Positions 29,063 through 55,988 of a stretch of 64,000 bases of DNA are shown here, piece after piece. Positions within the stretch are counted from its first letter, which is position 1; every line of letters starts with the position of its first letter. The stretch covers positions 1 to 64,000 of the forward strand of contig JANQJS010000038.1 of NCBI GenBank assembly GCA_028281535.1. The letters are read 5' to 3'. The DNA comes from Sedimentisphaerales bacterium. Its GTDB lineage: Bacteria; Planctomycetota; Phycisphaerae; Sedimentisphaerales; SM23-30. The translations under genes were made by a program, and so were the position numbers. The notes beneath the pieces were generated by a model. The model was not told the DNA's origin and did no database searches. It worked only from the letters and a program-made list of their open reading frames with translations.

Positions 29063-30292
29063 ATGACAGCTAAAACAGAATTAACAGATGTTGTAACAAT
29101 GATCCAACCAGCTGAAGCTCTTGATCTGGTATTGCAAAATGTACCTCAATCAGTCATAGAAAATATAGCACCAGAAGATGGATTGAATAGAGCCTTGGCA
29201 CAAATTATTCATTCGGATCAGGATTATCCTGCCTTTGACCGATCTATGATGGATGGATTTGCTGTACGCCTTGCTGATTCAGGAAAACCGGTCGAATGTA
29301 TAGGGGAGTTGGCAGCTGGAATGCATGCTGATCTTATATTAAAAGATGGACAATGTGTTCAAATTATGACCGGCGCTCCATGCCCTCAGGGAACAGAGGT
29401 TGTTGTGCCTAAAGAAAAAATAGAATGGCAAGGTCGTCAAGTGCTTCTTCCTGGTGATCTTTTATTAGATAAACATATTGCTCGCAAAGGAACAGAATGT
29501 TCAGCAAATGCTAAGGTTTTAAAGCCTGGTGATATTGTGTCGCCATTGGCACTAGCGAATATCGTAAGTTTTGGCTATCAAAAAATTGATGTCTACCGTA
29601 TTCCAACTGCAGCAATATTAACGACAGGCAGTGAGTTAGTACCGTCAGGTCAATCTTTAAAGCCTGGGCAAATTCGTGATTCAAATGGTCCGATGTTTTC
29701 AGCCCTATCACAGCAATTAGGTTTAAATATACCATCTCGCCATTTAGTTTCTGATGATATCGAGTCTCTAAAGGAATCGATAAATAACGCTTTAAAGCAG
29801 GCTGATTTGATTTTGATCTCTGGTGGCGTTTCGGTGGGGAATTATGATTACGTTCCACAGGTCATCCTGGACATCGGCGCAGAAATTATTTTTCACAAAG
29901 TAAAACAAAGACCCGGTAAGCCCATCTTATTTGCACGCAAAGAAGATAAATTGATTTTTGGTTTGCCAGGAAATCCACTCTCTGGTTTGTGGGGGTTTCA
30001 TGGATATGTCAAACCCGCTATTAAAAAATGGATGGGGATTGATCCATCACCCAAAAGGAGTAATGGAAATTTAACTGATGAAATTAAAAATAAAGGGCCT
30101 CGAAAAAGATTTGTTTTGGCAATCGCCACAGAAAAGGATAATGACCCATTCTCTTGGAATGTAACACCCTTACCAGGCCATGGCAGTGCAGATATCTATT
30201 CGCCAGCTAATGCAAATTGCTATATTTCCATTGGCCCAGGCGATGTGAAAATGGATAAAAAATCACCTATAGAATTTGAATGGATAATGTGA
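29063..30292 (+). CDS. moeA: molybdopterin molybdenumtransferase
   Basis: A 409-residue MoeA that inserts molybdate into adenylated molybdopterin. Domain order is standard: DYPAFDRSMMDGFAVR near the N-terminus, MTGAPCPQGTEVVVP, the MoCF-type core with TGSELVPSG, SGGVSVGNYDYVP and FGLPGNPLSGLWG, then the C-terminal beta domain. Start ATG 29063 follows the moaE stop by 3 nt; a second ATG 12 codons in is possible. It completes the last common step of Moco synthesis together with the MoaB-like protein. Confidence 0.94.
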   Translation: MTAKTELTDVVTMIQPAEALDLVLQNVPQSVIENIAPEDGLNRALAQIIHSDQDYPAFDRSMMDGFAVRLADSGKPVECIGELAAGMHADLILKDGQCVQIMTGAPCPQGTEVVVPKEKIEWQGRQVLLPGDLLLDKHIARKGTECSANAKVLKPGDIVSPLALANIVSFGYQKIDVYRIPTAAILTTGSELVPSGQSLKPGQIRDSNGPMFSALSQQLGLNIPSRHLVSDDIESLKESINNALKQADLILISGGVSVGNYDYVPQVILDIGAEIIFHKVKQRPGKPILFARKEDKLIFGLPGNPLSGLWGFHGYVKPAIKKWMGIDPSPKRSNGNLTDEIKNKGPRKRFVLAIATEKDNDPFSWNVTPLPGHGSADIYSPANANCYISIGPGDVKMDKKSPIEFEWIM

Positions 30293-35056: not shown

Positions 35057-36520
35057 TTAGCATCCAGCTTGGCTGCAATTGAGCCAATCCTGTATGAATT
35101 CAGACAAATCTAAAATGTCTACGGTGCAATCATTATTAAAGTCATGCGAATTAAATTCAAGAGCACCACATTCATCTTCAGTAACAGTGATAGCTATAGC
35201 AGCAGGGATTTCTGTATAAGTACCATCACCACTAATTGTTGTTACTGCAGTTGTTCCAGTAGGTTCTCCTGTGCCGGGTGTGCCACGAAACTCTTCATCT
35301 TGCACTGCTGATAATGCTACGGTTTGGGCTGTGTTCCAGTTACCAGAATCAAACGTTAGTTGATTAGGATCTGATGTGAAGAATGGATTATTTGGATCAG
35401 TGAAACCATCGGTGATATCAACAAAAACAGGTGATGATGGTGATCGGTTTAATGTGTAAACCAGTGATCCTGTAGGGCCAGCAATACTTTCTTCGAGTTC
35501 TGTGTCAACAGCTTCTACAAAGACACAACCTGAATCCAGATCCATCACATTGATTGCTAATGGTACTTGGGCTGCGCCACCATCAAACGCTGAGTCAAAT
35601 GCTGCACTAACTTGGGCTTGGAATGGAAACGGTTCAATACAAGTTTCAAAGTTAGTGTCATTAGAACCTGCCACAGATACTGTTTGAGGTGTTTCCCAGT
35701 TTCCATTAGTAAATGTCAAGACTCGAGGTGCGGCAACGGTGTCTAGTTCGATATCTAATCCTGATAGAGGGTCTAATGTTACAAAAATTGGACCTGTTAC
35801 AGGACCGAGATTCGGATCTAGTGAAATTACCATGTTTGTTGGTGTGCCACCTTCTATAACATCAATTGTAGATGGGCTTGCATTTGCTACAATGACTTGA
35901 CCAGGGTTCGTATTGTGTTGGATATCAATGATCACTTGATCAATACAGACATTTTCACCTGGTTCCTCCATAAAAAATTGGATATCATCGCACCCAAAAG
36001 GTGACGTTAGGACAGCTTCAACAGCAACGGTAAAATATCCATTGCCTAAATCCGCGGGGACATCAACAGGCTCTGACTCAATTCCCTCCGCCAGGTCACA
36101 ACCGACAAAACTTTCTCCGTCGTCAAAAACACCTGTTGCAGATTCAATTCCGGTGAAAGGTAAAGCTGATAACGTTGACGTTACCTGTACGCGTACAGTT
36201 GTACTTTCTCCTTCGACAGCCAGATTGGTTACCAATGCACGAATTAGTTCGCCAGCGACGACACCTTTGCGACCACCCGTGCTTTCACAAGCTTCAGTGC
36301 CAAATTCTTGTCCTTCGAGTACACTCGCAGTGACAAACGGAAAGTCAGGGCTTGTTATGTCGACATCCGCAGCATTGATGTCATTGGGATCAGTGAAATC
36401 AAAAACAACTTTTACCGTATTGGCAGATCCGCGCCATGAAGGTGCAAACTCATCATTTGCATAAATCGGTAAAGCATACAAGAGGCATGCTAGACCTACT
36501 TTTATCATTAATTTATTCAT
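35057..36520 (-). CDS. secreted Calx-beta-like protein with dockerin-like C-terminus
   Basis: A 487-residue exported protein. It has a short signal peptide (MIKVGLACLLYALPIYA). Residues about 20-195 form an unidentified beta-rich domain with paired Cys. About 210-420 contain two repeats with the shape VIEGG, LTFTNGNWETPQTVSVAGSND and LTFDSGNWNTAQTVALSAVQDEE, the extended beta-sandwich often seen beside Calx-beta modules. The last 45 residues are a single EF-hand/dockerin-like repeat, FNNDCTVDILDLSEFIQDW. Start ATG 36520 with GGAG 9 nt upstream. It is paralogous to the next gene (36651-38261), with which it shares the repeat type and a similar untranslated leader. Role unknown; extracellular. 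Confidence 0.7.
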   Translation of the reverse strand: MNKLMIKVGLACLLYALPIYANDEFAPSWRGSANTVKVVFDFTDPNDINAADVDITSPDFPFVTASVLEGQEFGTEACESTGGRKGVVAGELIRALVTNLAVEGESTTVRVQVTSTLSALPFTGIESATGVFDDGESFVGCDLAEGIESEPVDVPADLGNGYFTVAVEAVLTSPFGCDDIQFFMEEPGENVCIDQVIIDIQHNTNPGQVIVANASPSTIDVIEGGTPTNMVISLDPNLGPVTGPIFVTLDPLSGLDIELDTVAAPRVLTFTNGNWETPQTVSVAGSNDTNFETCIEPFPFQAQVSAAFDSAFDGGAAQVPLAINVMDLDSGCVFVEAVDTELEESIAGPTGSLVYTLNRSPSSPVFVDITDGFTDPNNPFFTSDPNQLTFDSGNWNTAQTVALSAVQDEEFRGTPGTGEPTGTTAVTTISGDGTYTEIPAAIAITVTEDECGALEFNSHDFNNDCTVDILDLSEFIQDWLNCSQAGC

Positions 36521-36650
36521 TATAATTATCTCCAATATACATTATTTCTCCACTCACTGGCTTGGTCATTTCAGCGGCCGGTGAGGATATGAATCAAGAT
36601 GATTCACATGATTTAATTATTTAATAATCTTTAAAACTATCACGTTGTTG

Positions 36651-38261
36651 TTATGGACAATTTGCAATTAATGGTTCTGTACAATCAGCCCAAGAGCCAC
36701 TGAAAATTGAAAAATCTAGCAAGTTAACAAAGCAGTCTTGATTGAAATCTTTTTCAATGAATGGTAATTGACCACATTCATCTTGAGTGATATTGACATT
36801 CACATTGCTAATCGTGCTAAAATTGTTAGGGTCAATTTCACTGTGAGTTGCACTAGAAATAATGGTGTCAACTAATGCACCATCATCGAGTAATTCATCA
36901 TCTGGAATTGCTTTAACAGTCACTTCTTGAGGAGTACCCCAATTTAAATTATCGAATGTTAGAGTGGATGGGTCAATTTCAACAACTGAAGCATCTGGCG
37001 TAGCAGTAATCACCAAAGAACCACCAATTGGCGCTCGGTTTAGAACGTATGAATAAACAGCTTGTTGTTCAGGATTATTCGGGTCCAATTCTTCCACTGA
37101 GACATCTGTTGGATCTACAATCACACAACCTGTATTGTTATCAAGGACGCTAACATTTACTGAAGGATTATTGTAGTTGTTGTAGGCAGAGTTTGGATCA
37201 CTAGGGACTGCTGAAGATGCTATGTTTGATGCTTCAATACAGCTCTCAAAAAGACTGTCATCAACAGCTGATGCCGTAACCGTTTGAGGTGTATCCCAAT
37301 TGGAAGTTGTAAATGTTAAAGTGATAGGTGTACCAGCACCTAAACCTAGATCGATATCAGTGCCGTCATTAGTACCATCATTTGGATCAAGTGTTATTTC
37401 TACGTTTACACCCGCTTCAGGGCTACCTTGTGCCAAAGTTACCGTAAATGTTGTTGAATTATTAACGGTTGATTCAGTCAATGTACCAAGGTTCGATGGA
37501 TCAAATATTACCGTTGGTGGTACTTTTTGAGCCGCATGTGCCGCAATTGTTTCAGGAGCTAATGCAAAATCATAAATAGCAAATTCATCCAGGATACCTA
37601 TGAAGTTTCGTCCGGCTACTTCACCTGCCCACGCACCAATTTGTGAGTCCGTAAAGCAAGTACCTGGTTCTGTTGCAGTAAAAGGATCACCAGGAACACC
37701 ATCAATATAAATTGCACCGGGTTCTCCTGCAACAAAAGTAATCGCAATGTGTGTGATAGGCACTTCGCCAATGCCACCTGGCAGACCACCTTCAGCAAAT
37801 CCTGCCCCTGGTGCATCCACTTCCATGAAACCATCATCAAATACGACGACATGAAGTGCACCGCCATCACCCGTGTTATCACCAGGGTAAGCATCTGTAT
37901 GATAAATAGAAGTGCAGCATTCACCAGTACCAACACCATCAAATGCTACGATAATAAATTCGATCGTATATTCAGCTGAGCAGATACCCAGATCTGGTAC
38001 ATCGACAAAATTGTCGCCGCCAGGAAATCCTACACCGGTACCGTGAGCTCCTGCTGCTGTTAAGTCAATGGTTCCGCCTGTGTAAGTCCCGTCAAAACCA
38101 TTTCCTGATGAGTCTACAGCGGTTGTACCAGTTACTTCCGTAAATTCGTAGTAAAGTATTGGGCCTTCATCAAGGACCAAGTCTCGATACGCTGCTTGTG
38201 AGCTAGTTGCAAAGCAAGCCAGCAGTATCAAGCACCACATGACTATTAAACACTTTTTCAT
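36651..38261 (-). CDS. secreted LamG-domain protein with Calx-beta-like repeats and dockerin-like end
   Basis: A 536-residue exported protein. After a signal peptide (IVMWCLILLACFATSSQA) there is a concanavalin/LamG domain (about 25-245) opening GPILYYEFTEVTGTTAVDSSGNGFDG and including GILDEFAIYDFALAPETI. Two repeats follow (about 250-490) with FTTSNWDTPQTVTASAVDDSLFE and FDNLNWGTPQEVTVKAIPDDELL, the same unit as in the downstream paralogue. The C-terminus is FNQDCFVNLLDFSIF, a single dockerin-like EF-hand. LamG domains usually bind carbohydrate, so it may be a surface sugar-binding protein; that is inference. Start ATG 38261 with GGAG upstream. Confidence 0.72.
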   Translation of the reverse strand: MKKCLIVMWCLILLACFATSSQAAYRDLVLDEGPILYYEFTEVTGTTAVDSSGNGFDGTYTGGTIDLTAAGAHGTGVGFPGGDNFVDVPDLGICSAEYTIEFIIVAFDGVGTGECCTSIYHTDAYPGDNTGDGGALHVVVFDDGFMEVDAPGAGFAEGGLPGGIGEVPITHIAITFVAGEPGAIYIDGVPGDPFTATEPGTCFTDSQIGAWAGEVAGRNFIGILDEFAIYDFALAPETIAAHAAQKVPPTVIFDPSNLGTLTESTVNNSTTFTVTLAQGSPEAGVNVEITLDPNDGTNDGTDIDLGLGAGTPITLTFTTSNWDTPQTVTASAVDDSLFESCIEASNIASSAVPSDPNSAYNNYNNPSVNVSVLDNNTGCVIVDPTDVSVEELDPNNPEQQAVYSYVLNRAPIGGSLVITATPDASVVEIDPSTLTFDNLNWGTPQEVTVKAIPDDELLDDGALVDTIISSATHSEIDPNNFSTISNVNVNITQDECGQLPFIEKDFNQDCFVNLLDFSIFSGSWADCTEPLIANCP

Positions 38262-38655: not shown

Positions 38656-41600
38656 TTAATCACGCACTTGATATGAATCAAAGTGCAATTCACCACTCGT
38701 ACGTGTCACTACGACTGTATGAGGTCCACAACTTAATGATGTGTCTTCAAAGGCTAACACTTGCGTTTCAGAGCCAGAACCAACACTAAATGATTGTGCA
38801 GGGCCACCATCAATCGAGACGGTTCCACCCTGTGAGCTATCAAATTGCCACACATAAATTCTTACACCATTACCGTTGATGGAGAAGGTCGCGGTAGCAC
38901 TGCCTGCATCAGCCCATTGTGCATCATTATTGAGTGCGCCTGGCGCTGACACATTTCCTGCGAATCCGCTATAAGAAATGGTTCCGCTGGTGTTATTGAC
39001 CTGAGAATTCCAGGTTGTTCCGCAACCACTAGGCGTATCTGTTGTTGCACATGCTGCTGATGAGTAACTGCCTGTGTTACCTACGCTATCACGAGATCTA
39101 ACTTGGTAGCAGTACTGGGTGCTCGCTGTTAAGCCGGAATCGTTATAGGTGGTTGATGTTTGCCATCCACTATCGGTTGCACCTGGGCCACCGGTTGTTT
39201 CGTTGAATTGATATTCAACGGGACCAGATGGGTCACTTCCAGTGCCAGCAACCATATTAATCGAGGTTTCACCAGTTGAATTCGGTGCTGTAGCAAAAGT
39301 TGCTGGATTGGGTGATGGAGGCGTTGTATCTGGGAGTGCATCAGTTGTAGCACAAGAAGCCGAAGATGAGCTACCCGTATTACCAGCACTATCACGTGAC
39401 GTGACCGTATAGCAATATTGTGTACTTGGGCTTAGTAGCGTATCTGTATAACTCGTGGATGTTTGCCATGTACTATTGCTACCTCCAGCATTACCTGAGG
39501 TTTCTGTGAAAAAATATTCTACAGGTGACGATGGATCACTCGCTGTGGTTGCTGTCATACTGATTGAGCTGGTTCCCGCAGAGGCAGGGGGTGATGCAAA
39601 CGTTGCAGGATTAGGAGTTGGAGGTGTTGTGTCACCACCACCACCTTGGTCTGCAAAAACGATATATGAAACTTGCTCAGTTGTATGGTTTCGTTCAGTA
39701 TCATTGAGTTGATCTTCATCAATCGCAAGATTAATTGAGGTTTCTGAGATAGGATTCGCACCGTAGAATAGCGCCCATCCACCATTACCACCATCTACTG
39801 CCGCCATTGTTGCAATACCAATCGACGCCGTTCCAGATAAACCGCTGATGCTATAACTGTAAGGTGGTGAGTTTGTCACGCCACGTATTGTGTCGCCACC
39901 AACACCTGAAGTATAGTTGACACCATCCATGGTACCTGAACCTGATTCTACAACGATGTAACCAATGGTTTCATTGGCGTGAGCATTATCAGGATCTTCG
40001 TTAACGGTTTTACCAACTTGTAGAGCAGAACTACTTGGTGGGGATTGGCGAGAACTACCACGTGACCAAAATTCTACATGCCCCGCATCGTTGTAGGTCA
40101 TAACTTGACCTACAACTACAGGACTCGTATAGCTGTTGGCATAGGTTTGTGCTTCACCAACCCAGGAATTGTTGTTGGATGTTACAGTGGAATTGTATTT
40201 GACCGCTTCCATGGTTACTCCATCCTGAGCTTGAGTGTACACACCTTCTTCAACGACCATATAGTAGATATCAGATGCTGCTGGTGCTGTGGAAGATCCG
40301 TCAAGACGAACCTGGAAGCTATTACCCGTTGCATTCTGAATTCGCACCGTACCTGGTGCTGAAGCATTGGTATAATTAGGTGTGGCAACGACAACCATTG
40401 AACTATAACTGCTACCCAAATTTACAGTGGTCCAACTACTACCAACGCCGCTGACCACACCTGTTTCTAAGTTAATACCTGTTCCGCCTACGGCTTGGGT
40501 TGTTGCTGATTCCGAAGCAGAAGCAGAAGTGACATTTCCTGAACTATCACGAGCGGTGACGGTGTATGAATACATTGTGCTTGGCGATAGACCGGTATCT
40601 GTATAACTTGGACTTGCTTGCCATGCACTATTACTGCCGCCGGGATTGCCTGTTAATTCCGTAAAGAAATATTCAACAGGTGGGCTTTGACCATCCAGTG
40701 CTGTCGTCGCTGTCATGCTAATGGCTGATTCACTATCTGCAGACGGAGCTGATGCAAACGTCATAGGATTTGGAATCGGAGCAACTGCATCTGTGCCGCC
40801 ATTAACTGTAATGACGCCAAACATGAATTCTGGAGCACCACTACCGTGAACATGACAGTGATAGTTATACTGATTAGGAGCACCCGCATCACCAGACGAA
40901 TTATCCAGGAATGATTGGTCAAACGTAACAGAGAACACCGTTGCTTCTGGATTGGTTGTAGTAGGATCTGCTGAAGAATTAAAGAGCATCGTGCCAGCTG
41001 GATAATCAGGGTCACCCAATAATTCTGTGTGAGCACCTGATAAGCCTGACCAGACGTTATGGCCTGCTTCAACAAAATTCCAATCAATAGTATCGCCAAC
41101 ATTCAAAGTTACATTTGATGGCGTGAATACATTACCTGGCCCAACTTGAATTTCGACATGGCCATCTTCTGCTGCAGTTGTCACAGCTTGAGATGTTGAG
41201 TAGCTACCGGTATTACCAACACCATCACGCATACGTACACGATAGATGTATTGGGTAGCTGCATTCAAACCATAATCAAGATAAATATTCGATGTTGTCC
41301 AGCCACTATCCGTTGCACCTGTATTTCCTGTGGTTTCATCAAAATCATATTGTACGAAAGGTGATGGATCGCTTCCAACGGTAGCTGTCATTGTGATCAT
41401 TGTGTCACCAATAGCTGTTGGTACTGTTGCGAAGGTTGCAGGATTGGGTGTTGGCGGATCTGTATCTGGTGTTGCTTGTGTAGTTGCACAGGAAGCGGTT
41501 GAAGCCGTTCCCGTATTCCCCAAGCTGTCACGAGATTGAACCGTGTAGCAATATTGTGTGCTTGCGGACAATCCTGTATCGGTATAACTGGTACCTGTTT

Positions 41601-44583
41601 GCCAGCCACTGTCTGTTCCACCCGCATTACCTGAGGTTTCATCGAAATTGTATTCAACAGGCGTGCTTCCACCCGCATCTGTTGCCGTGGTTGCCGTCAT
41701 GTCAATCGCACTGCTACTTGTTGCATTGGGTACAGAAGCAAATGTTGCAGGATTAGGCGTTGGAGGATCAGTATCGCCACCGCAACCACCGCCAGACAAG
41801 TCTGTCACAACTAAGTTGCGATAGGAAACGGTACCAGTGCCACCTTGATGACAGAATAAACCAATACGTCCAGGAGCGGCATATGTATGACCCGTTGGGT
41901 TGTGGCCACAAGTCGTTGAGGTCGAATCAAAATTAGTAATGGTCTGGATGCCATTGACCCATACATTAAAGATCGTTCCTTGGACAGTAATTCTTAAGGA
42001 ATTCCAATCGCCATCATTGTAATTTGCGCGAGGGATTCCACCTAAGCAATCCAATGGGTTTGTATCAGGATATGGATCCATTAAAGCACCCCATCCAACC
42101 GTTGCACCACCTTCATCGATATTATTAACAATGATACCGGCTAAGCCCTGACGACCTGAAGCAAAGGTCAGAGGTACCCAATTATTGGTACGCATCACAG
42201 GTCCAGCATTGGTGACATTTGGGTTGATCTTCAGATCACAAGTGAATTCGTAGTCACTGTAATCATTTTTATCAGTGACGATAAAATAGGGAATTGATGG
42301 ATCAACAGTAAAGACAATTTCACCATTTGAAACCGCAACGTGACCGCCTGAAATAGCAGATTCTGGCCCTTCGTTCCAGCCGGTTAAATCTGTGCCATTA
42401 AAAATCGATCCAAATCCACTGCAACCACCACCAGCGTTAGTCGTGGCTGATGCATTTGTAGAAGCTGTTGTTGTATTACCGACAGAGTCACGAGCTTGAA
42501 CATTATAGGTGTATTGTGTTGAAGCCGTTAAACCTGAATCGGTATAACTGGTGGAAGTTTGCCATGCGCTATCGGTTGCGCCAGGTCCACCTGTGGTTTC
42601 ATCAAATTGATATTCAACGGGCCCCGAAGGATCACTTGCAGTCGTTGCAGTCATGCTAATCGCAGTGTCACTATCTGCTGATGGTGCTGAGGCAAATGTC
42701 ATTGGATTAGGGGTTGGAGGTGTGGTGTCGGCACCAGCTGAAGTCGTTGCACATGATGTACTTGAATAACCTGTTTGATTTCCTTGTGAATCGCGTGCAC
42801 GAACTTGATAGCAATATTGCGTACTGGCACTCAAACCACTATCTACGTAAGTCGTTGATGTTTGCCATCCACTGTCGGTTGCGCCAGCGTTACTGGTTGT
42901 TTCGTTAAATTGATATTCTACTGGATCGCTGCCTTCGGCATCCGTTGAGACCGTTGACACTGCGGTGATTTGTGCGCTGCCATTAGCCGTTACTGACGAC
43001 ATTGAAGGTTGGCTTGGTGGATTGGTATCTGGTGGAGGGCCACTGCCATCAATTTTAATCCAACTAGCTACTGAAGGAACCAGGGTTTCTGAGTTGTTCG
43101 ATAAAATAAATAAACTGTAGTATCCTGGTGGAATTAAGTTTGGATTGCTGGGAATAGTGACCGTTAATGATGAACCACCATCGGAGAAACTACATTGAGT
43201 ACCAATAACATTATATTTGAAATGGTGAGTTGATGACCCATGGCGATAAAGAACAACATCTGCGATGGTGTTGCTCGAAGAATAATTCACATTGATATTT
43301 TGACCATATCCTGCTGTGCTTGGGGCAGAGTTAATTGTGGGACGAGCACCTGCAGACAAGTATGGAGGAGAATAGAACTGGATGTCACCCGTTTCTCCTC
43401 CAGCACCAATCGCATTTGGTCCAGCACCACCACCTGAGGCAACCAGTACACGACCGTCTGGTAATAAGGCACCGGTTGAGTGATATTGACGACCATAAAC
43501 GTTATCTTGTGCGGTGGTTTGCCAGCTACCTGTGCCAGCATCTGGAATATATATAGCATCTGTCGTTCCACTACCACCACCAAACACGAACACATTGCCA
43601 TTAGGCATTAGAACGGCATCTTCATAGAAAATTTCACCATTAGGTGCTGAACCGGGTTTGACTGGACCAGCAACCCAGGCAGGACTTGGTTGACTCAGAT
43701 CGATAATATCTGTACCTTTATAACCATTTTCAAGTTGACTCAACCCATCTAAAACAACAAATCGACCATCTAATAATCTGACGGATTCGTTGTATTGTCG
43801 AATCGGCGCGTTGGAAGCACCGGCATCCCCAGCACAGACTTCTACTACAGAATTACCAGGATTATTGGCCCAGTTACCAACGGTTTGGTGTAGCGACACT
43901 TGATTGGTATTGACATTGACTTCCCAGATTTTTGTTGAGATGAACATACCCGTTTGAAATATACGAAAAATACCAGTTCCTGGGTTATCAGGTAATAAGT
44001 GAATACGAGGATAGGCTTGACCTTCTTGTTGGAAACCTGGAATGTTGTTTCCGTTATTGAATAATGTCCAGTTACCTGTTGATGGATCGTAGTATTCTGC
44101 TGAAGATTCACAGTCATCGGGTTGGCCAAATCCTTCCGTGAGACCACCTAATGTGAATATCTTACCATCACCGAGGATGATAGTAGAAGGATACCATCGA
44201 GCTCGCTGCATGGCTGTAATATCCGTGTGTTGATTTGTGGCTGGGTCAAAGATCGTTGCCTTGTTGTGGAAGGGGTTTTGGCCACCATTGAGTAAATAGC
44301 GACCGTCTGCGAGGACTGTCATACCTGCACACAAATAATCATCATTTGTTTGTTGGGTGGTACCGCCTACTGGATTTGTATAATCAAAGGCATAGGTTGG
44401 ATTATTCGATCCTGGATTACGAAAAGCCACAAAGTGAACTTCATTGGTGTTCAATACGGCTGAATGAACACCTTCAACAGCAAGACTGACTGGTGATGAC
44501 CAGCTACCTTGCCCCCATGACATTTGTGCTGCCATGGAAAGCATGAAACATTGAAACATTAAATACATTAATCTTTTTTTCAT
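38656..44583 (-). CDS. giant secreted copper-radical oxidase with DUF1080-like and cupredoxin domains
   Basis: A 1975-residue exported protein with a signal peptide (FQCFMLSMAAQMSWG). Residues 25-515 form a galactose/glyoxal-oxidase-type propeller plus C-terminal E-set domain. The copper-radical residues are all visible: Cys85 (YLCAGMTVL), Tyr131 (RWYPS), Tyr367-His368 (RQYHST) and His453 (SSTHHF). Two FN3-like repeats follow. Residues about 722-930 resemble 3-keto-disaccharide hydrolase/DUF1080 (GSIFNGTDLTGW...GDWNSLRITVQG). About 1144-1263 is a type-1 copper cupredoxin (GHNVWS, YHCHVHG, then Met). About 1369-1644 is a domain I do not recognise. The last 120 residues are jelly-roll-like. Seven FN3-like repeats of about 100 residues link these parts. 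Likely oxidises an extracellular alcohol or aldehyde, producing peroxide; the cupredoxin might pass electrons or store copper (inference). Confidence 0.82.
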   Translation of the reverse strand: MKKRLMYLMFQCFMLSMAAQMSWGQGSWSSPVSLAVEGVHSAVLNTNEVHFVAFRNPGSNNPTYAFDYTNPVGGTTQQTNDDYLCAGMTVLADGRYLLNGGQNPFHNKATIFDPATNQHTDITAMQRARWYPSTIILGDGKIFTLGGLTEGFGQPDDCESSAEYYDPSTGNWTLFNNGNNIPGFQQEGQAYPRIHLLPDNPGTGIFRIFQTGMFISTKIWEVNVNTNQVSLHQTVGNWANNPGNSVVEVCAGDAGASNAPIRQYNESVRLLDGRFVVLDGLSQLENGYKGTDIIDLSQPSPAWVAGPVKPGSAPNGEIFYEDAVLMPNGNVFVFGGGSGTTDAIYIPDAGTGSWQTTAQDNVYGRQYHSTGALLPDGRVLVASGGGAGPNAIGAGGETGDIQFYSPPYLSAGARPTINSAPSTAGYGQNINVNYSSSNTIADVVLYRHGSSTHHFKYNVIGTQCSFSDGGSSLTVTIPSNPNLIPPGYYSLFILSNNSETLVPSVASWIKIDGSGPPPDTNPPSQPSMSSVTANGSAQITAVSTVSTDAEGSDPVEYQFNETTSNAGATDSGWQTSTTYVDSGLSASTQYCYQVRARDSQGNQTGYSSTSCATTSAGADTTPPTPNPMTFASAPSADSDTAISMTATTASDPSGPVEYQFDETTGGPGATDSAWQTSTSYTDSGLTASTQYTYNVQARDSVGNTTTASTNASATTNAGGGCSGFGSIFNGTDLTGWNEGPESAISGGHVAVSNGEIVFTVDPSIPYFIVTDKNDYSDYEFTCDLKINPNVTNAGPVMRTNNWVPLTFASGRQGLAGIIVNNIDEGGATVGWGALMDPYPDTNPLDCLGGIPRANYNDGDWNSLRITVQGTIFNVWVNGIQTITNFDSTSTTCGHNPTGHTYAAPGRIGLFCHQGGTGTVSYRNLVVTDLSGGGCGGDTDPPTPNPATFASVPNATSSSAIDMTATTATDAGGSTPVEYNFDETSGNAGGTDSGWQTGTSYTDTGLSASTQYCYTVQSRDSLGNTGTASTASCATTQATPDTDPPTPNPATFATVPTAIGDTMITMTATVGSDPSPFVQYDFDETTGNTGATDSGWTTSNIYLDYGLNAATQYIYRVRMRDGVGNTGSYSTSQAVTTAAEDGHVEIQVGPGNVFTPSNVTLNVGDTIDWNFVEAGHNVWSGLSGAHTELLGDPDYPAGTMLFNSSADPTTTNPEATVFSVTFDQSFLDNSSGDAGAPNQYNYHCHVHGSGAPEFMFGVITVNGGTDAVAPIPNPMTFASAPSADSESAISMTATTALDGQSPPVEYFFTELTGNPGGSNSAWQASPSYTDTGLSPSTMYSYTVTARDSSGNVTSASASESATTQAVGGTGINLETGVVSGVGSSWTTVNLGSSYSSMVVVATPNYTNASAPGTVRIQNATGNSFQVRLDGSSTAPAASDIYYMVVEEGVYTQAQDGVTMEAVKYNSTVTSNNNSWVGEAQTYANSYTSPVVVGQVMTYNDAGHVEFWSRGSSRQSPPSSSALQVGKTVNEDPDNAHANETIGYIVVESGSGTMDGVNYTSGVGGDTIRGVTNSPPYSYSISGLSGTASIGIATMAAVDGGNGGWALFYGANPISETSINLAIDEDQLNDTERNHTTEQVSYIVFADQGGGGDTTPPTPNPATFASPPASAGTSSISMTATTASDPSSPVEYFFTETSGNAGGSNSTWQTSTSYTDTLLSPSTQYCYTVTSRDSAGNTGSSSSASCATTDALPDTTPPSPNPATFATAPNSTGETSINMVAGTGSDPSGPVEYQFNETTGGPGATDSGWQTSTTYNDSGLTASTQYCYQVRSRDSVGNTGSYSSAACATTDTPSGCGTTWNSQVNNTSGTISYSGFAGNVSAPGALNNDAQWADAGSATATFSINGNGVRIYVWQFDSSQGGTVSIDGGPAQSFSVGSGSETQVLAFEDTSLSCGPHTVVVTRTSGELHFDSYQVRD

Positions 44584-44852: not shown

Positions 44853-46646
44853 TTATTGTGTTGTTTTATAAATATCACTAATTTCTTGTTTAGTTAATTC
44901 TCGATTGTAAATTGTAAAATCATCGATCCGGCCTTGAAACGATTTAGGTGAAGGTTCAATACAATCTGAAATACCAATACAGATATTTTCAGTAAATAAA
45001 TTATTCTTTGATCCGAGGTAATTCTCATTAAGGGGGATAATTTGTTTATGGTTATGTGATATTCCATTAATATATAAATGACAATCTTGAGTTATGATGG
45101 AATAGGTCGCAGCAATGTGATACCATTTCTTTGGCTCGAGTCGATTTAATGATGACATATTAGTTAGATTGCGACTTTTTGGTGTGTCACTATCTTGGTT
45201 TCTTGTGTTATTTTTATAATATTGAATTGAATAATTTAAATGGCCATCATCAAGAATGTTTATTTGAGTAATGAGCTGTGATGGATAATTTGAGTTTATT
45301 CGACAGAACGCATGTTGTAAAACACCTCGAGCCGTATAATCAGAAGTATCATCAATATATAACCTGAACATAATTGTGTTTGCAAACGTGCGATGTTGTT
45401 TAATTGGTTCCTCTCGAGCAGAATTAATACCATACGAGCTATTTAAGATCAGTGTTTTATTGTTCGCTGAATTCTTTCCGACGTATTGTTGTTCAGTCAC
45501 GATTGTATCGTCTGAAGATGCATGGTAGATATCAGGCGACATGATATTATAAATTATGTTGTCGTTATCTATATTTTGGTCAAATGTCCAATACAGTATG
45601 GGGTTACTAGCTAAAATTGCGTTATGGTATGAACCATGTATTGAGGGATGTTTTAAATCGGTATTTAGTGCTTTTGGCATTGTTTTTACGAAAGCCGTAG
45701 TGTTGATGTTTATATAGCTGATCTGACCATTGGTTGAGATTAACCTTGCTTGTCCACTCTTTAATTCCTCTATCTCGCTAGGTGTTGTATTGGAAGAGAT
45801 ACCTACTTTACCTTCAAATACATGACATTCACTCGATCCATCTTCTAGAACAGAGACCCCAAATTGTGTACCATAATCAATGATAGACGCGTTAGGTGTT
45901 GTGACTTGAAAACCAATTGCCCTGGGAGGAACCGTCGCTGTAAGTTTGCCTAACTGCAGAGAAGCCCCATTAGCCGATGTTAGTTCAAATTTTGACGGTC
46001 CCTGTAAAATAATGAGCGTCCCTTGGTCAAATGCTATTTTTGCAGTTCCTTCGATTAGATGATATGTTTTATTAACTAATCGAGCGTTATGTTCCATTGA
46101 GTCAGATGTTGAATCCCAAATTGCCCCTTGGGTTTGAATTAGTTTTGCAACATCTGTATATTGTGTTGGTTTAAATAAAAACCAAGCTAGAAATGCAACG
46201 CATAAGCAGGCTGCAATAAGCTGGATGGGTCTATAAAATGATATTTTTTTATATGTGATAGATTGATTGGTTCTGTTTTTTGTTTGACTATTTTTATGTT
46301 CAGATAAAAATGCGTCCAATTGTTCGCTGGCGAGTGCTTCGATTTTCTTTTTTCGTTTACTAGCAATTTTTTCAGCTTCTTGAGCATCTAATCGGTTTTG
46401 TTGATCAATAAATTCTCGATAGACAGCTTCCATATCAGTATCAATCTGTTGGGGGGAATTGTCATGATCTATTAATTCCATAATGCTTTTTGCTAATATG
46501 GCATGGTCATAAGATAATTCAATGTATTGTTTTAATGTATTGGGATCTTGTTGCAATTGCTGTTGGAAATCTTGCAATTGGGTTTCACTTAAGCTTCCTT
46601 CAAACGCTTGCAATATGAGTGTTGTCATGGGATCTTTACCGTTCAT
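44853..46646 (-). CDS. FecR-like anti-sigma protein fused to LamG domain
   Basis: A 597-residue single-pass membrane protein. The cytoplasmic N-terminus (about 1-140) is helical and charged (LILQAFEGSLSETQLQDFQQQL), as in anti-sigma domains. A membrane segment (LIAACLCVAFLAWFLF) follows at about 145-162. Next is a FecR domain with AKIAFDQGTLIILQGPSKFEL and VTTPNASIIDYGTQFGVSV. The C-terminal 220 residues form a LamG/concanavalin-like domain ending IDDFTIYNRELTKQEISDIY. I chose ATG 46646, which overlaps the stop of the sigma factor gene by one base and has GGGAG 8 nt upstream. It probably holds the sigma factor until the LamG domain senses an extracellular glycan (inference). Confidence 0.85.
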   Translation of the reverse strand: MNGKDPMTTLILQAFEGSLSETQLQDFQQQLQQDPNTLKQYIELSYDHAILAKSIMELIDHDNSPQQIDTDMEAVYREFIDQQNRLDAQEAEKIASKRKKKIEALASEQLDAFLSEHKNSQTKNRTNQSITYKKISFYRPIQLIAACLCVAFLAWFLFKPTQYTDVAKLIQTQGAIWDSTSDSMEHNARLVNKTYHLIEGTAKIAFDQGTLIILQGPSKFELTSANGASLQLGKLTATVPPRAIGFQVTTPNASIIDYGTQFGVSVLEDGSSECHVFEGKVGISSNTTPSEIEELKSGQARLISTNGQISYININTTAFVKTMPKALNTDLKHPSIHGSYHNAILASNPILYWTFDQNIDNDNIIYNIMSPDIYHASSDDTIVTEQQYVGKNSANNKTLILNSSYGINSAREEPIKQHRTFANTIMFRLYIDDTSDYTARGVLQHAFCRINSNYPSQLITQINILDDGHLNYSIQYYKNNTRNQDSDTPKSRNLTNMSSLNRLEPKKWYHIAATYSIITQDCHLYINGISHNHKQIIPLNENYLGSKNNLFTENICIGISDCIEPSPKSFQGRIDDFTIYNRELTKQEISDIYKTTQ

Positions 46647-47176
46647 CAGGCTTTCTCCCAATCTGCTATAGTCCGATTAATGCATTCTCTTAAAGATTCG
46701 TGAAGCTGAGAAAACTTTTTGTATAAACTCTTGACAGGTTTATCCATATTTTCAGCAATGGATTTGATTTTTTCGCCAGTATCAAAACGCAGCTTTAATA
46801 AATGGATATCATCAGGTGTTAATTTTTTAAGACAAGAGGTCAATGCTTGTTGGCGCTTTTCTACCGTTTTAATTTCAATCGCCGATTGTTGTGAAACCAA
46901 TTCAAAAACGGAATTATTAATAAGTACGTGTGCATTACGTTTTTTCTGTCTGAAATTAAGAACAACATTTTTGGCAATGGTTAAACTCCATGCGCCAAAA
47001 TTACTGCCTTGTTCAAATGTTTCAAATTTCCGGCATAGTATCATGACAGTCTCTTGGAATAGGTCATCAGCATCAGAGAGGTTATGAACAATACTAACAA
47101 TATAAGCATAAATCTTATTTTGGTGGCTTTTCAGGAGCTTTGCCAGTTGTTCATGATTTTTATTTATTTGGCTCAT
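46646..47176 (-). CDS. ECF RNA polymerase sigma factor (planctomycete FecR-linked type)
   Basis: A 176-residue sigma-70 family protein with region 2 (YIVSIVHNLSDADDLFQETVMILCRKF, then GAWSLTIAKNVVLNFRQKKRN) and region 4 (LLKLRFDTGEKIKSIAENMDKPVKSLYKKFSQL). This matches the subfamily I know from Rhodopirellula/Verrucomicrobium-type genomes. It is co-translated with the FecR-LamG protein (1-nt overlap), its likely anti-sigma factor. Downstream on the same strand are the giant oxidase and two LamG/dockerin proteins, possible regulon members. Start ATG 47176. Confidence 0.9.
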   Translation of the reverse strand: MSQINKNHEQLAKLLKSHQNKIYAYIVSIVHNLSDADDLFQETVMILCRKFETFEQGSNFGAWSLTIAKNVVLNFRQKKRNAHVLINNSVFELVSQQSAIEIKTVEKRQQALTSCLKKLTPDDIHLLKLRFDTGEKIKSIAENMDKPVKSLYKKFSQLHESLRECINRTIADWEKA

Positions 47177-47390
47177 TGCTTCACACTTTATCCATCACTT
47201 TGTATTGGTTAATATTTATATGTGAGCTGGGATCAGAATTACCCCAAAAATATTTAGAAAAGTTGCATGAAAAAGTCAGACAGATTCATTGTTATTTGTA
47301 AATTATCGACTTATAGCAATTTTCAATTGAATTTCTCCAGTGGATTTCTAATCAAAGATAATAGGTTGGGACATGAATCAGAGGGGAAAA

Positions 47391-49818: not shown

Positions 49819-50667
49819 CTATTCAATCAATGTCCTTACGACACTGAGTTCTTCTTCAATATTTTCACTAATTTCTTCTAATTGCTCATCCGTTAAGCCG
49901 ATTTCCTGCAGCAGTGCTGGATCAATGGTTTCGGTTTCAACTGTAATACTGAGTCCTAGGTTTTTCTGAGCACAAAGAATATCAGAAATGTGAGTAACAA
50001 TCGCTAATAGACGATTTTCTTTTGCCAGTTCAGAAGGATTGTGGTGATAACCTGAGACGTATTGGAAAGAACGTGGGAATTTCCATTTTGCAGTCAAGGC
50101 CATACCGATTTCCTGATGATTTGCACCAATGGCTTTTTCTTCTGCCATGCGATATGGAACGCCTGCTTTCGCCTGGTTAACGATTTCTGGGATTTGATCG
50201 CTGTAGCACTGCAATAGAGCAACTAATCCAAGATCATGTATCAGACCTGCTAAAAAGGCTTCATCAGGAAGCGCCAGTCCAATCGCACTGGTGATTAGTT
50301 TGTTGGTTGCGCCTACGGCAACACTGTGCGTCCAAAGGTCTTTACCAGTAAAGTCATCGCAGGGCGATGCTTGCTTAAACATTTTGGTTAATGAAGCGGC
50401 AATAGCTATGTTTTTAACCGCATTGAGGCCTAAAAGCATAATTGCTCGATCGATACTACCGATTTGGCCAGGCAAACCATAAAATGCTGAGTTAACCACT
50501 CGCAGAACACGTGCCGACAAAGCCGGATCGTTGCAGACGATTTTATGCAAATCGTGAGCTGTGCTGCGTGGGTCTTGTACCACTTCCACGATTCGCATCG
50601 TGATTTCAGGTAGGGTTGCAATTTCAATCGTTTTGCTGGCTATTTCTTTTGCTGCTGCATTTGCCAC
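49819..50667 (-). CDS. HDOD-domain signalling protein
   Basis: A 282-residue protein made essentially of one HDOD domain (a non-hydrolytic relative of HD-GYP), with IATLPEITMRIVEVVQDP, NDPALSARVLRVVNSAFYG, IDRAIMLLGLNAVKNIAI and LIHDLGLVALL. HDOD proteins are regulators in motility, chemotaxis or nucleotide second-messenger signalling; catalytic metal ligands of true HD enzymes are mostly absent. I chose GTG 50667 with AAGGA 8 nt upstream, rather than a TTG eight codons earlier. It follows the neuC-like gene by 13 nt, so it belongs to the nonulosonate operon. A strong terminator follows it. Confidence 0.82.
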   Translation of the reverse strand: MANAAAKEIASKTIEIATLPEITMRIVEVVQDPRSTAHDLHKIVCNDPALSARVLRVVNSAFYGLPGQIGSIDRAIMLLGLNAVKNIAIAASLTKMFKQASPCDDFTGKDLWTHSVAVGATNKLITSAIGLALPDEAFLAGLIHDLGLVALLQCYSDQIPEIVNQAKAGVPYRMAEEKAIGANHQEIGMALTAKWKFPRSFQYVSGYHHNPSELAKENRLLAIVTHISDILCAQKNLGLSITVETETIDPALLQEIGLTDEQLEEISENIEEELSVVRTLIE

Positions 50668-50680
50668 TGTTTTGATCCTT

Positions 50681-51829
50681 TTAGTAAACAATCTTTTTTC
50701 TTAACAACGTTTTATCCACTCGAATTTTTGCCAATGCTTTGGCTATTTTCTGGCCGGCCTTGCCGCTGCCATAAATTCTATTGCATTTAAGATGTCCCAC
50801 TGCCTTGCGTTGGCTGATTTGGTCAAGACCCTTTTTAATATGCTGAAAACCATATTTTGAATCTATGACGTTCGTATCGCGCTCGCGCCCTGTCTGGCGT
50901 GGGCCAACGTTCAATACATCGGCATTTAAATAGCTGGACTCTATAATTCCACAAGAACTATTTCCAACTAGTGCAAATGTTTTGCGTAGTAAGCCTAAAA
51001 ATATCGGACGTGGTAAATGTTTGAGGATACAGTGATCGACTTTGAAATTATATTGCTGGATTGCTCGGATGATTCCTGAATGACCCGGGTCAGAGTTGGG
51101 ATATAAGATGATGAGAGGCAGACCTTTAGATTCACATGCTTTGAGTGTTTGTTTCATCCAGGTTTCTTCTTTTGTCGCAGCAAAACCAGCTGGATGTTGT
51201 AGAATGATCATGAATGGATCTTGGGTATTCAATCCAGTGCATTCATCCAAAATAGATTTTTTTTTACAGGGTATGCCCGATAATTCATCGATTGCTGGTG
51301 AGCCCGTCTGATAAATACGAAAAGGATCTTCACCTAACTTAATTAAGCGGGATTTAGATTGGGCTGAGGCAGGAAAATGAATGTGAGCCAGCTTGGAGAT
51401 AGCATGGCGGTAAGCATCATCCTGGATACCTGTGGCAACATCACCTCCATGGATGTGAGCAATAGGAATTTGGCTGGCAGTTGCTGCACTGGCCGCGGCA
51501 AAAATTTCAATGCGATCGCCAAGCAGCAGGACAATATCGGACTTTAGTTCCGCGTAAGCTTTACTCATCTTAGATATCGCTTTGCCAAGTCCGACAGCAT
51601 GGTTAAGTATGTTATCATCTTCTGTTTGAAGTTTTACCTTTGCATCAATCGGCAATCCGTCTGATTCGATTTCTTTGACAGTATAGCCAAAAGTTTTTAA
51701 AAGGTGCATGCCTGTTGCGATGATTTGGAGTTTAAGATCAGAATGTTTTTGAATTGCTTGTATAACAGGTTTAAGAAGCCCATATTCAGCGCGAGTACCA
51801 GTGACTACCGTGATTCGACGTTTTTTCAA
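50681..51829 (-). CDS. neuC: UDP-N-acetylglucosamine 2-epimerase (hydrolysing), NeuC/LegG type
   Basis: A 382-residue GT-B-fold epimerase that hydrolyses a UDP-HexNAc while epimerising C2, giving the free ManNAc-type precursor of a nonulosonic acid. Marks are ITVVTGTRAEYGLLKPVI, LLLGDRIEIFAAASAAT, IAHIHGGDVATGIQDDAYRHAISKLAHIHF and GNSSCGIIESSYL. Start is TTG 51829 with AGGA 9 nt upstream. Whether the product is ManNAc (sialic acid) or a 2,4-diacetamido sugar (legionaminic acid) cannot be told; no aminotransferase or dehydratase for the latter lies in this cluster. Confidence 0.88.
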   Translation of the reverse strand: MKKRRITVVTGTRAEYGLLKPVIQAIQKHSDLKLQIIATGMHLLKTFGYTVKEIESDGLPIDAKVKLQTEDDNILNHAVGLGKAISKMSKAYAELKSDIVLLLGDRIEIFAAASAATASQIPIAHIHGGDVATGIQDDAYRHAISKLAHIHFPASAQSKSRLIKLGEDPFRIYQTGSPAIDELSGIPCKKKSILDECTGLNTQDPFMIILQHPAGFAATKEETWMKQTLKACESKGLPLIILYPNSDPGHSGIIRAIQQYNFKVDHCILKHLPRPIFLGLLRKTFALVGNSSCGIIESSYLNADVLNVGPRQTGRERDTNVIDSKYGFQHIKKGLDQISQRKAVGHLKCNRIYGSGKAGQKIAKALAKIRVDKTLLRKKIVY

Positions 51830-51844
51830 TGAAGTATATCCTGC

Positions 51845-52612
51845 TTAGGAGTCAATGATAGAATTCGATGGGTTCTTTTTTGTCGTTTTAGATGTTGTTT
51901 CAATGATTGACGAGGCAGATTTTGGATAAGACCAGAATCGGTCAATTTCATCCTGTCCAGGATTTTCATTGTTATATGTAGGCTGCATGTTAATTGCTTT
52001 CGCAGGCACACCTACCACTGTTGTCGACGATTCCACATCTTGAACCACGACTGCACCTGCACCAACAACAGCATTTTGGCCTATGGTAATCCCTTGAATA
52101 ATCGTTGCTCCTATACCCACAAACGCATAGGGTTGTACCGTAACATGGCCAGCGATTCTGACGCCTGGGCATATGTGTGAAGATTTTAATATGTTGGATT
52201 CATGATCGATGATGCTGCCTGTATTGATAATGACGGAGTCTTCAATTGCTGCTAGTGTGCAAATATTTGCTCCCGCTGCGATCACGACATTTTTTCCAAT
52301 TGTACAGGTGCTTGCTATATTGGCCGAAGGGTGAATTGCTGAGACAAGGTTTACACCGGCTTGTTCAAACTTTTTGGTATAAGCGTCGCGGATGCGATTG
52401 TCACCGATGGCAATGATCGCACCTCCTATGCCATACTCTTCGAATTTGTCCACCATGGATAAATCGCCTAGAACTCGAAGGCCGCCAATTTTTTTATTAT
52501 GTAGGGCTTTGTTGGCATCTAAAAAACCGGCCAAATCAAATTGGTGGTTGCTGCGCAATATATCCAATACGACTCTCCCGTGACCTCCTGCACCGACGAT
52601 AACGATATTCAT
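51845..52612 (-). CDS. neuD: NeuD-family sugar O/N-acyltransferase
   Basis: A 255-residue acyltransferase. The N-terminal 75 residues form a Rossmann-like domain (MNIVIVGAGGHGRVVLDIL) and the rest is a left-handed beta-helix of hexapeptide repeats (ASTCTIGKNVVIAAGANICTLA, VGIGATIIQGITIG, VGAGAVV). Enzymes of this family acetylate sialic acids or their precursors using acetyl-CoA. The catalytic His is likely in INTGSIIDHES. It starts within the neuB stop (ATGA overlap) and is 15 nt from neuC. The C-terminal 40 residues are Ser/Thr-rich and not part of the fold. Confidence 0.85.
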   Translation of the reverse strand: MNIVIVGAGGHGRVVLDILRSNHQFDLAGFLDANKALHNKKIGGLRVLGDLSMVDKFEEYGIGGAIIAIGDNRIRDAYTKKFEQAGVNLVSAIHPSANIASTCTIGKNVVIAAGANICTLAAIEDSVIINTGSIIDHESNILKSSHICPGVRIAGHVTVQPYAFVGIGATIIQGITIGQNAVVGAGAVVVQDVESSTTVVGVPAKAINMQPTYNNENPGQDEIDRFWSYPKSASSIIETTSKTTKKNPSNSIIDS

Positions 52613-53679
52613 GAATTTTCATCCTTGCGATTAGTAAGAAAATCATAACGGAGTAATTGATCAGCAGGTATGTCACAATTGGCCCTGCTTCCCACGATAG
52701 ATTTTAATTTTTCAGAGGGAATTCCATTGCCGGGCCGTTTCTCAGTCAGCATATCTTCGGTGATGATACTACCCGCTTTTATATATTGCTGTGCAACGAT
52801 GCTGGTATGTACTTTTTCTTTGATAAAACGTTCTTGAGGCAGGGGCGATTTGTTATATTGCCCACATGCGATTGAGGCTTGTCTGGCTTTATAAATATAA
52901 TCTTTCAGTTCCGCTGGCGACAAACTCATTTTATGATCTGGGCCTTCAAGTGATTTGTCCAATGTAAAATGTTTTTCAAGAATCGTCGCACCAGCTGCGA
53001 CGGCAAGTGCGCCTGTTTCAGTTTCTAGCGTGTGATCAGAAAAACCAGTTGGCAGTCCGAGATGTTCATGCAAATAACCGATTGCATATAAATTAGCCTG
53101 GTCCAGTGATGTTGGGTAAAGGCTCACGCAATGTAAGACAGCAAGGTTGCCGCAACCGTTTTCAGTCAATGTTACAATGACTTTTTCTATGTCTGATAAC
53201 AAAGACATTCCTGTCGACAAAATGACTGGCAGGCGTGTTTGCCCGATTTCTTTTAACAGGGAATGCATTGAAGTGTTCCCTGAACCAATTTTGATAGATT
53301 CCATGCCGATTTGACACAAAACCTTTAACCAGTAGGTGGAAAAGGGGGTTGCCAAAAAATCAATATTTCGCATTTGGCAAAATTCAAATAATGCATGAAG
53401 ATCATGTTCTCGAAGTTCACATTTTTTGAGCATGTCATATTGGCTTTGTGAACCAGTGTCGTTTTCGATTTGGTAGTCTGCTTTGGGAGCTGATTTGGTT
53501 GTCAGCTCGTCCGCACTGAATGCCTGAAATTTTACAGCATCCGCGCCAGCTTGAACCGCAGCATCAATTAATTCATAAGCGGTTTCCAGGCAGCCATTAT
53601 GATTCACGCCGGCCTCAGCAATGACATAAGGCGGTTTTGTTTTAATAAAACTTTCGCACCATGATGGTTTATTTGACAT
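52609..53679 (-). CDS. neuB: N-acylneuraminate-type synthase (NeuB/LegI)
   Basis: A 356-residue enzyme that condenses phosphoenolpyruvate with an N-acylmannosamine-type sugar to a nine-carbon nonulosonic acid. The TIM barrel has YVIAEAGVNHNGCLETAYELI, AVKFQAF, ATPFS, KIGSGN, VILSTGM and LEKHFTLD. A C-terminal SAF (antifreeze-like) domain begins around residue 295 (YIKAGSIITEDMLTEKRPGNGI). All of these are usual for NeuB, PseI and LegI; the exact acid cannot be distinguished. It is the core gene of the operon, between the radical SAM enzyme (9 nt) and neuD (4-nt overlap). Confidence 0.92.
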   Translation of the reverse strand: MSNKPSWCESFIKTKPPYVIAEAGVNHNGCLETAYELIDAAVQAGADAVKFQAFSADELTTKSAPKADYQIENDTGSQSQYDMLKKCELREHDLHALFEFCQMRNIDFLATPFSTYWLKVLCQIGMESIKIGSGNTSMHSLLKEIGQTRLPVILSTGMSLLSDIEKVIVTLTENGCGNLAVLHCVSLYPTSLDQANLYAIGYLHEHLGLPTGFSDHTLETETGALAVAAGATILEKHFTLDKSLEGPDHKMSLSPAELKDYIYKARQASIACGQYNKSPLPQERFIKEKVHTSIVAQQYIKAGSIITEDMLTEKRPGNGIPSEKLKSIVGSRANCDIPADQLLRYDFLTNRKDENS

Positions 53680-53688
53680 GACTAAAGA

Positions 53689-55170: not shown

Positions 55171-55220
55171 TCTGTATCCTTTCGCTTATCCTCAGAAGTA
55201 TAGTTTAATAAATTCAAAAA

Positions 55221-55961: not shown

Positions 55962-55988
55962 TGTTCGTTGCTCCTGTTTGGTTGCGAG

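Follow-up and report, generated by a model that had tools for sequence, protein, structure and literature searches.

Why does one bacterial gene join a copper-radical oxidase (CRO), a DUF1080-like domain and a type-1 copper domain in a single secreted chain? The gene lies in a stretch of 64,000 nucleotides from a Sedimentisphaerales bacterium (the whole of which we call the window). The first-pass annotation had read it as a trio, in which the oxidase could make an oxidised sugar, the DUF1080-like part could cleave or bind that sugar, and the copper domain could pass on electrons or copper. The centre of the finding lies elsewhere and is larger than first noted: it is the pair of CRO and cupredoxin with its thirtyfold cassette, not the trio with DUF1080.

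Layout of the focal exoprotein

Pfam and profile searches bore out the annotated chain: one secreted protein holds the oxidase, FN3-like linkers, a DUF1080-like domain and a type-1 copper domain. They also named kelch repeats and FN3-like repeats, and the chain proved to hold two further domains, which we label HLEC and CTER (Table 1). We rejected an assembly chimera, and consider an artefact of assembly unlikely: the gene shares no exact stretch longer than 49 nt with the other cassette loci that were fetched, and within itself it repeats no exact sequence of 24 nt or longer.

Table 1. Features of the focal gene and its cassette, in positions of the window.
Feature	Coordinates	Strand	Basis or remark
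Modular CRO-cupredoxin exoprotein, CDS, 1975 aa	38656..44583	(-)	ATG-to-stop open frame, Pfam
Signal peptide, residues 1-25	44509..44583	(-)	sequence, read by eye
GlxA-type copper-radical oxidase (CRO), residues 26-511	43051..44508	(-)	profile and structure-chain matches
CRO early-set domain	43051-43344	(-)	
CRO site codon, C85	44329-44331	(-)	
CRO site codon, Y131	44191-44193	(-)	
CRO site codons, Y367/H368	43480-43485	(-)	
CRO site codon, H453	43225-43227	(-)	
FN3-like repeats x2, residues 518-716	42436..43032	(-)	
PF06439/DUF1080 fold, residues 717-929	41797..42435	(-)	sole copy in any CRO frame of the genome
FN3-like repeats x2, residues 934-1136	41176..41784	(-)	
Plastocyanin-like cupredoxin, residues 1138-1262	40798..41172	(-)	
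Cupredoxin ligand codon, H1175	41059-41061	(-)	
Cupredoxin ligand codon, C1243	40855-40857	(-)	
Cupredoxin ligand codon, H1246	40846-40848	(-)	
Cupredoxin ligand codon, M1254	40822-40824	(-)	
FN3-like repeat x1, residues 1262-1362	40498..40800	(-)	
Domain 'HLEC' (label coined here), ~285 aa, residues 1366-1650	39634..40488	(-)	no Pfam name
FN3-like repeats x2, residues 1648-1848	39040..39642	(-)	
C-terminal domain 'CTER' (label coined here), ~125 aa, residues 1850-1975	38659..39036	(-)	no Pfam name
FecR/LamG protein, putative membrane anti-sigma or sensor	44853..46661	(-)	FecR 33.1 bits vs 24
ECF sigma factor, TIGR02989	46646..47176	(-)	142.7 bits vs 124.55
ATAAGTCGAT element upstream of the sigma gene	47305..47314	(-)	core AAGTCGA
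LamG protein with dockerin-like tail, downstream of the CRO gene	36651..38261	(-)	tail by eye
Protein with dockerin-like tail, downstream of the CRO gene	35057..36535	(-)	tail by eye

The end of the oxidase domain is recognised by PF09118 (GO-like early-set; E 1.6e-18, residues 414-511). PF07250, the glyoxal oxidase propeller, matches partially, with an E of 1.2e-8 and 34.9 bits, under its cut-off of 37.5, and the NCBIfam GlxA model NF052501 gives 164 bits (E 3.6e-48) against an equivalog cut-off of 800. The focal CRO resembles GlxA, without qualifying as GlxA proper. Its nearest solved relative is GlxA, an AA5-type radical copper oxidase of Streptomyces (PDB 4unm, E 2.5e-36), and a profile of the family also finds GlxA first (E 5.8e-72), followed by other CROs, among them galactose oxidase (1gof, E 1.3e-55), an AA5_2 galactose 6-oxidase that shares the kelch and early-set fold and, by profile, the site.

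The five active-site residues listed in the annotation (C85, Y131, Y367, H368 and H453) are exact, and lie in the motifs YLCAG, RWYPS, GRQYHS and STHHF when aligned to GlxA. Judged by sequence, the features of the CRO class are present: a kelch propeller with a GO-like early-set domain, the Cys and Tyr of the cofactor, an axial Tyr and two His. GlxA carries the same Cys, Tyr, Tyr-His and His site and the same RWYP motif, whose Trp reads Ala in chains 5lqi and 5lxz; the Trp is invariant in 25 aligned copies of the present family. The GlxA chain as matched has no cupredoxin. In the present family the CRO stands at the N-terminus of frames of 865 to 2948 amino acids; the genome has some 30 copies of it, and they come with an ECF/FecR cassette. 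Counting from Y131, T149 falls at what we take to be the place of W290 in galactose oxidase. The W290/R330 pair is described as an indicator of galactose oxidase activity in excerpts of three papers taken jointly (PMC11267884, PMC4736821, PMC9770985).

At the copper domain, the His, Cys, His and Met noticed at first pass are indeed found in that order (H1175, C1243, H1246 and M1254) with the spacing of plastocyanin. Pfam does not name this cupredoxin in the whole focal protein, where it is too divergent; taken in isolation, the domain reaches 22.4 bits with PF00127, above the cut-off of 21.2. The cupredoxins of paralogues match PF00127 clearly (one at an E of 1e-12, and down to 4.9e-12 in the genome-wide search), and a profile built from 25 cupredoxin copies finds plastocyanins at 4e-6. 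At an E of 0.001, the genome holds 26 PF00127 matches, 25 of which are in frames of the CRO-cupredoxin family: 24 belong to CRO frames and one to a frame truncated where its contig begins. The focal domain does not figure in this list of 26. A single-sequence structure model of the cupredoxin and a model of HLEC have a mean pLDDT of 41 and 39, too low to be of use.

The DUF1080 fold and the proposed relay

Could the DUF1080 part cleave what the oxidase makes? The match to PF06439 is clear (E 1.9e-22 at residues 723-926, with 80.7 bits against a cut-off of 26.8), and this speaks for a relay in which the CRO would oxidise a sugar and the DUF1080 domain would cleave it as a 3-keto-disaccharide hydrolase. 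Three observations led us to abandon that part of the annotation. The domain occurs in a single CRO gene: of the 12 PF06439 matches in the genome, the other 11 lie in other frames, of 234 to 573 amino acids. A motif of the stand-alone copies is lost: read from the alignment, Y(E/Q) is present in 10 of the 11 stand-alone copies and Y(E/Q)xD in 8 of 11, whereas the focal domain, which shares the signature of the 3-keto-disaccharide hydrolases but is set in a CRO chain, lacks it. The chemistry does not fit either: a CRO gives aldehydes, while the known DUF1080 hydrolases, according to excerpts of one paper (PMC9007349), act on C3-ketones, sugars whose C3 has been oxidised by another enzyme, a dehydrogenase. 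Matches of the focal domain to solved members are also weak (the best at 1.4e-4). The same excerpts mention a DUF1080 protein, THTE_1561, reported as an endo-xanthanase/lichenase, which leaves room for other DUF1080 chemistry. On balance we consider the relay very improbable.

For the DUF1080 part, a role in binding or as a spacer is more likely; the first-pass annotation had itself named a pure binding domain as an outcome that would refute its proposal. In the focal gene it is a one-off insert, probably glycan-binding, and the constant unit is CRO plus cupredoxin.

A family of paralogous cassettes

The genome (4.44 Mb in 67 contigs, 99.4% complete, with contamination rated 0.01) contains 31 CRO-specific early-set domains; with two fragments at contig edges counted in, its CRO loci number 33. 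Contamination or a stray single gene was ruled out, given this rating and the spread of the family over many contigs. CRO and cupredoxin share one frame in 29 of the 31 early-set genes, normally in the order CRO-FN3-FN3-cupredoxin. Of the two exceptions, locus L051 has an intact frame of 1247 amino acids, with PASTA and F5/8 domains and without cupredoxin; it lies deep inside the clade and therefore reads as a loss of the cupredoxin. The other (L045:4672-8208) has a frameshifted CRO spread over three frames with the cupredoxin in the next frame, and is apparently a broken gene.

Beyond this core the proteins vary. Their tails combine FN3 repeats, HLEC and CTER in variable order, and the gap between CRO and cupredoxin varies as well, holding the DUF1080 fold and two FN3 repeats in the focal gene. 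Four large paralogues (L056, L057, L064 and L067) have about 500 amino acids of unnamed sequence before the cupredoxin, at the place of the focal DUF1080 fold. HLEC has 19 other near-full copies in the genome. The same HLEC/FN3 tails are also found behind other heads: a G8 domain with a CEMIP-type beta-helix in L070:6591-12590, and unnamed heads in L065:5009-9202 and L069:999-5543.

Copies of the CRO share a median pairwise identity of 44%, those of the cupredoxin 59%, of HLEC 74% and of CTER 39%. Distances between CROs follow those between cupredoxins (Mantel r 0.51, n = 28, p 0.0005; r 0.53 when restricted to the 12 genes that carry HLEC as well). Their correlation is not clear with HLEC (r 0.18-0.20, p 0.08-0.09) or with FecR (r 0.10, p 0.17), and is weak with sigma (0.23, p 0.026). 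These distances suggest that CRO, FN3 and cupredoxin are inherited as one block with freer tails and regulators, for which physical linkage alone could suffice.

Both copper sites are kept across the family. In the CRO, the Cys is present in all 30 rows that have a residue there, the first Tyr in 31 of 31 and each His in 31 of 31; the axial Tyr is found in 27 of 31, with Asp or Glu in the other 4. These four (L056:5206-13368, L057:4829-13087, L064:5066-13909 and L067:3-6758) form one clade (100/100). In the cupredoxin, His, Cys and His are present in all 31 domains, and the axial ligand is Met in 23 and His in 8; the axial-His domains are in L042, L045 (two), L047 (two), L055, L058 and L059. 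All cupredoxins of the family share a Y/F-H-C-H-x-H motif, where extra His flank the Cys on both sides. The plastocyanins and amicyanins of PF00127 have the ligand order H, C, H, M and the C-x-x-H spacing in common with these domains, which differ from them by the invariant extra His (HCHxH), by the axial His in 8 of 31 and by the fusion to a CRO.

In the window, the genes follow one another as sigma, FecR/LamG, CRO exoprotein and two dockerin-tailed proteins. Sigma and FecR/LamG genes are both present within 4 kb upstream on the same strand in 22 of the 33 CRO loci, and at least one of them in 25; some of the remaining loci sit behind another CRO or a dockerin-tailed pair. Dockerin-tailed proteins follow the CRO in five loci (the window, L044, L046, L054 and L062). 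The AAGTCGA core occurs upstream of 14 of 26 sigma genes, that of the window included, and a longer form of this motif fits only 4 of 194 loci. Upstream of the CRO genes themselves, we found GTGTGTGT in 17 of 30 cases and GAAAGGAA in 19 of 30. In two loci (L051:3291-5591 and L052:4909-7191) the sigma match falls in frames of about 766 amino acids, where sigma and FecR are perhaps fused. Elsewhere in the window, positions 49819-59613 have matches to NeuC, a B12-radical SAM protein and a PseD-like protein, perhaps a surface-glycan cluster, and positions 25935-28130 encode an FdhF/YdeP-type molybdoenzyme, with a MoeA-like gene at 29063-30292.

Where does this family come from? In a tree of 74 CRO domains, the 30 rows of this genome form one clade (100/98, and 200 of 200 bootstrap trees). 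No CRO match was found in 12 genomes of the same family, and one of 46 genomes of the same order has one; HLEC is absent from all 58 of these relatives. The single clade and the scarcity of CROs among relatives argue for a burst in one lineage. More widely, and counting this genome, CRO matches occur in 27 of 392 genomes drawn from the phylum and 32 of 397 from the class. Other genomes with matches have one to seven copies, setting apart one (G059) that had appeared to hold nine: on reading, these were nine partial kelch-type matches only. TIGR02989-like sigma genes, for their part, are found in 59 of 59 genomes, this one and its 58 relatives (48 here, 2 to 35 in the others). As sigma genes are common to all 59 genomes and CROs absent from most, the regulators are common stock and the CRO payload is not. 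The sigma family, the dockerin-like tails and the general look suggest a planctomycete; the planctomycete marker PSD1 gave no match, and neither did any control.

The fusion itself was sought further afield. A profile scan of wider genome contigs returned nothing with the focal CRO as query and, with the family alignment, one Anaerolineae CRO without a cupredoxin match; viral contigs gave no CRO. Among plasmids, 22 records have CRO-like matches, with a cupredoxin in none of the 15 matches listed. None of the frames read outside this genome matches the CRO and cupredoxin profiles together, although many of the loci stop some 1.5 kb beyond the early-set domain, and a cupredoxin profile built from this genome's family alone could miss distant cupredoxins. 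Pfam found no Copper-bind domain in five longer outside frames. A search of titles and abstracts, which mostly did not extend to subscription journals, found neither a CRO-cupredoxin fusion nor a bacterial CRO expansion.

Candidate roles of the cupredoxin

What could a plastocyanin-like domain do for a CRO? The role first proposed for it, to pass on electrons or copper, is plausible, and the pairing with the CRO holds in nearly all CRO genes of this genome. Our leading explanation, still tentative and a little short of an even chance, is an exported GlxA-type CRO with the plastocyanin-like domain in cis as its redox partner. As far as the genes themselves can tell, the two copper sites, their joint conservation (29/31), the single-clade burst and the sigma/FecR cassette are established.

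The pathway that we envisage would begin with FecR/LamG sensing a glycan outside the cell and freeing the ECF sigma factor, which would switch on the CRO cassette. The exoprotein would bind the glycan through its accessory domains (the DUF1080 fold, HLEC and CTER), and the CRO would oxidise a primary alcohol or an aldehyde, yielding H2O2. The type-1 copper would then take single electrons from the copper/tyrosine site of the CRO; this removal could convert the inactive Cu(II)-tyrosine form to Cu(II)-tyrosyl radical, the active one, or the electrons could go to another acceptor. Each paralogue would work on its own surface or ligand.

According to excerpts of the papers mentioned above (PMC11267884, PMC4736821 and PMC9770985, jointly), CROs convert primary alcohols to aldehydes and O2 to H2O2, a resting CRO must give up one electron to form its tyrosyl radical, and in fungi a tandem haem peroxidase activates alcohol-oxidase CROs by taking one electron from them. 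The Colletotrichum peroxidase and alcohol oxidase, as these excerpts present them, are likewise a CRO with a dedicated one-electron partner; that partner is a separate haem peroxidase in trans, whereas here it would be a domain of blue-copper type in cis. Radical formation and electron removal are both tasks that suit a one-electron copper domain in the same chain as a CRO. Our search for haem peroxidases was for the Dyp type only: none was found in the genome, and the control was detected.

Is the variable architecture compatible with electron transfer? Since the gap between CRO and cupredoxin varies, the architecture does not preserve any fixed route for electrons, and this variable spacing speaks for a flexible, transient contact instead. 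The co-divergence of the two domains also follows from joint duplication, which weakens its support for a redox pairing, and the four CROs with Asp or Glu for the axial Tyr count against a redox partner. Alternatively, the cupredoxin may be a structural or binding domain with no redox function, in matrix or adhesion proteins whose CRO would modify glycan as GlxA does, or be partly inactive. The huge FN3 content (206 matches in the fetched loci), the shuffled tails and variable spacing, the drift of the axial ligand between Met and His and the same four CROs without axial Tyr would all suit such proteins. Complete invariance of His, Cys and His (31/31) is not expected of a mere spacer, and we hold this alternative to be distinctly unlikely.

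The main rival to an electron role is copper delivery: the cupredoxin would store copper or act as its chaperone, loading the CRO and driving formation of the Cys-Tyr crosslink, and would move copper and not electrons. Excerpts of the same three papers, taken jointly (PMC11267884, PMC4736821, PMC9770985), state that maturation of Streptomyces GlxA needs copper delivery by Sco, and DtpA. The Y/F-H-C-H-x-H motif, with its extra His invariant in the family, points in the same direction, and a fusion in cis would suit copper-poor water. The ligands, however, are the electron-transfer type-1 set and match plastocyanin, with an axial Met in 23 of 31 domains. We hold copper delivery to be unlikely.

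We return to the redox partner in cis, which remains our preferred reading. A broader proposal, possible but doubtful, is that these proteins form a class of self-partnered CROs, in which the cis cupredoxin would act as one-electron activator or outlet, with no need of a peroxidase and perhaps with turnover in which O2 is not the direct acceptor, deployed in some 30 separately regulated glycan-sensing cassettes.

The natural route by which CROs pass from the resting to the active radical form is largely open; the excerpts cited describe a dedicated peroxidase in some fungi. With a one-electron copper protein in the same frame as the oxidase in 29 of 31 genes, this family offers a direct test of activation in cis, and supplies natural variants for it: cupredoxins with an axial Met or an axial His, CROs with Tyr as against Asp or Glu at the axial place, and one copy that lost the cupredoxin. 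Independently of that test, a single bacterium carries about 30 CROs, most of them behind a sigma/FecR pair of their own, against none to seven in the other genomes searched, the partial matches of G059 set apart: this expansion and its cassette stand even if the redox role fails.
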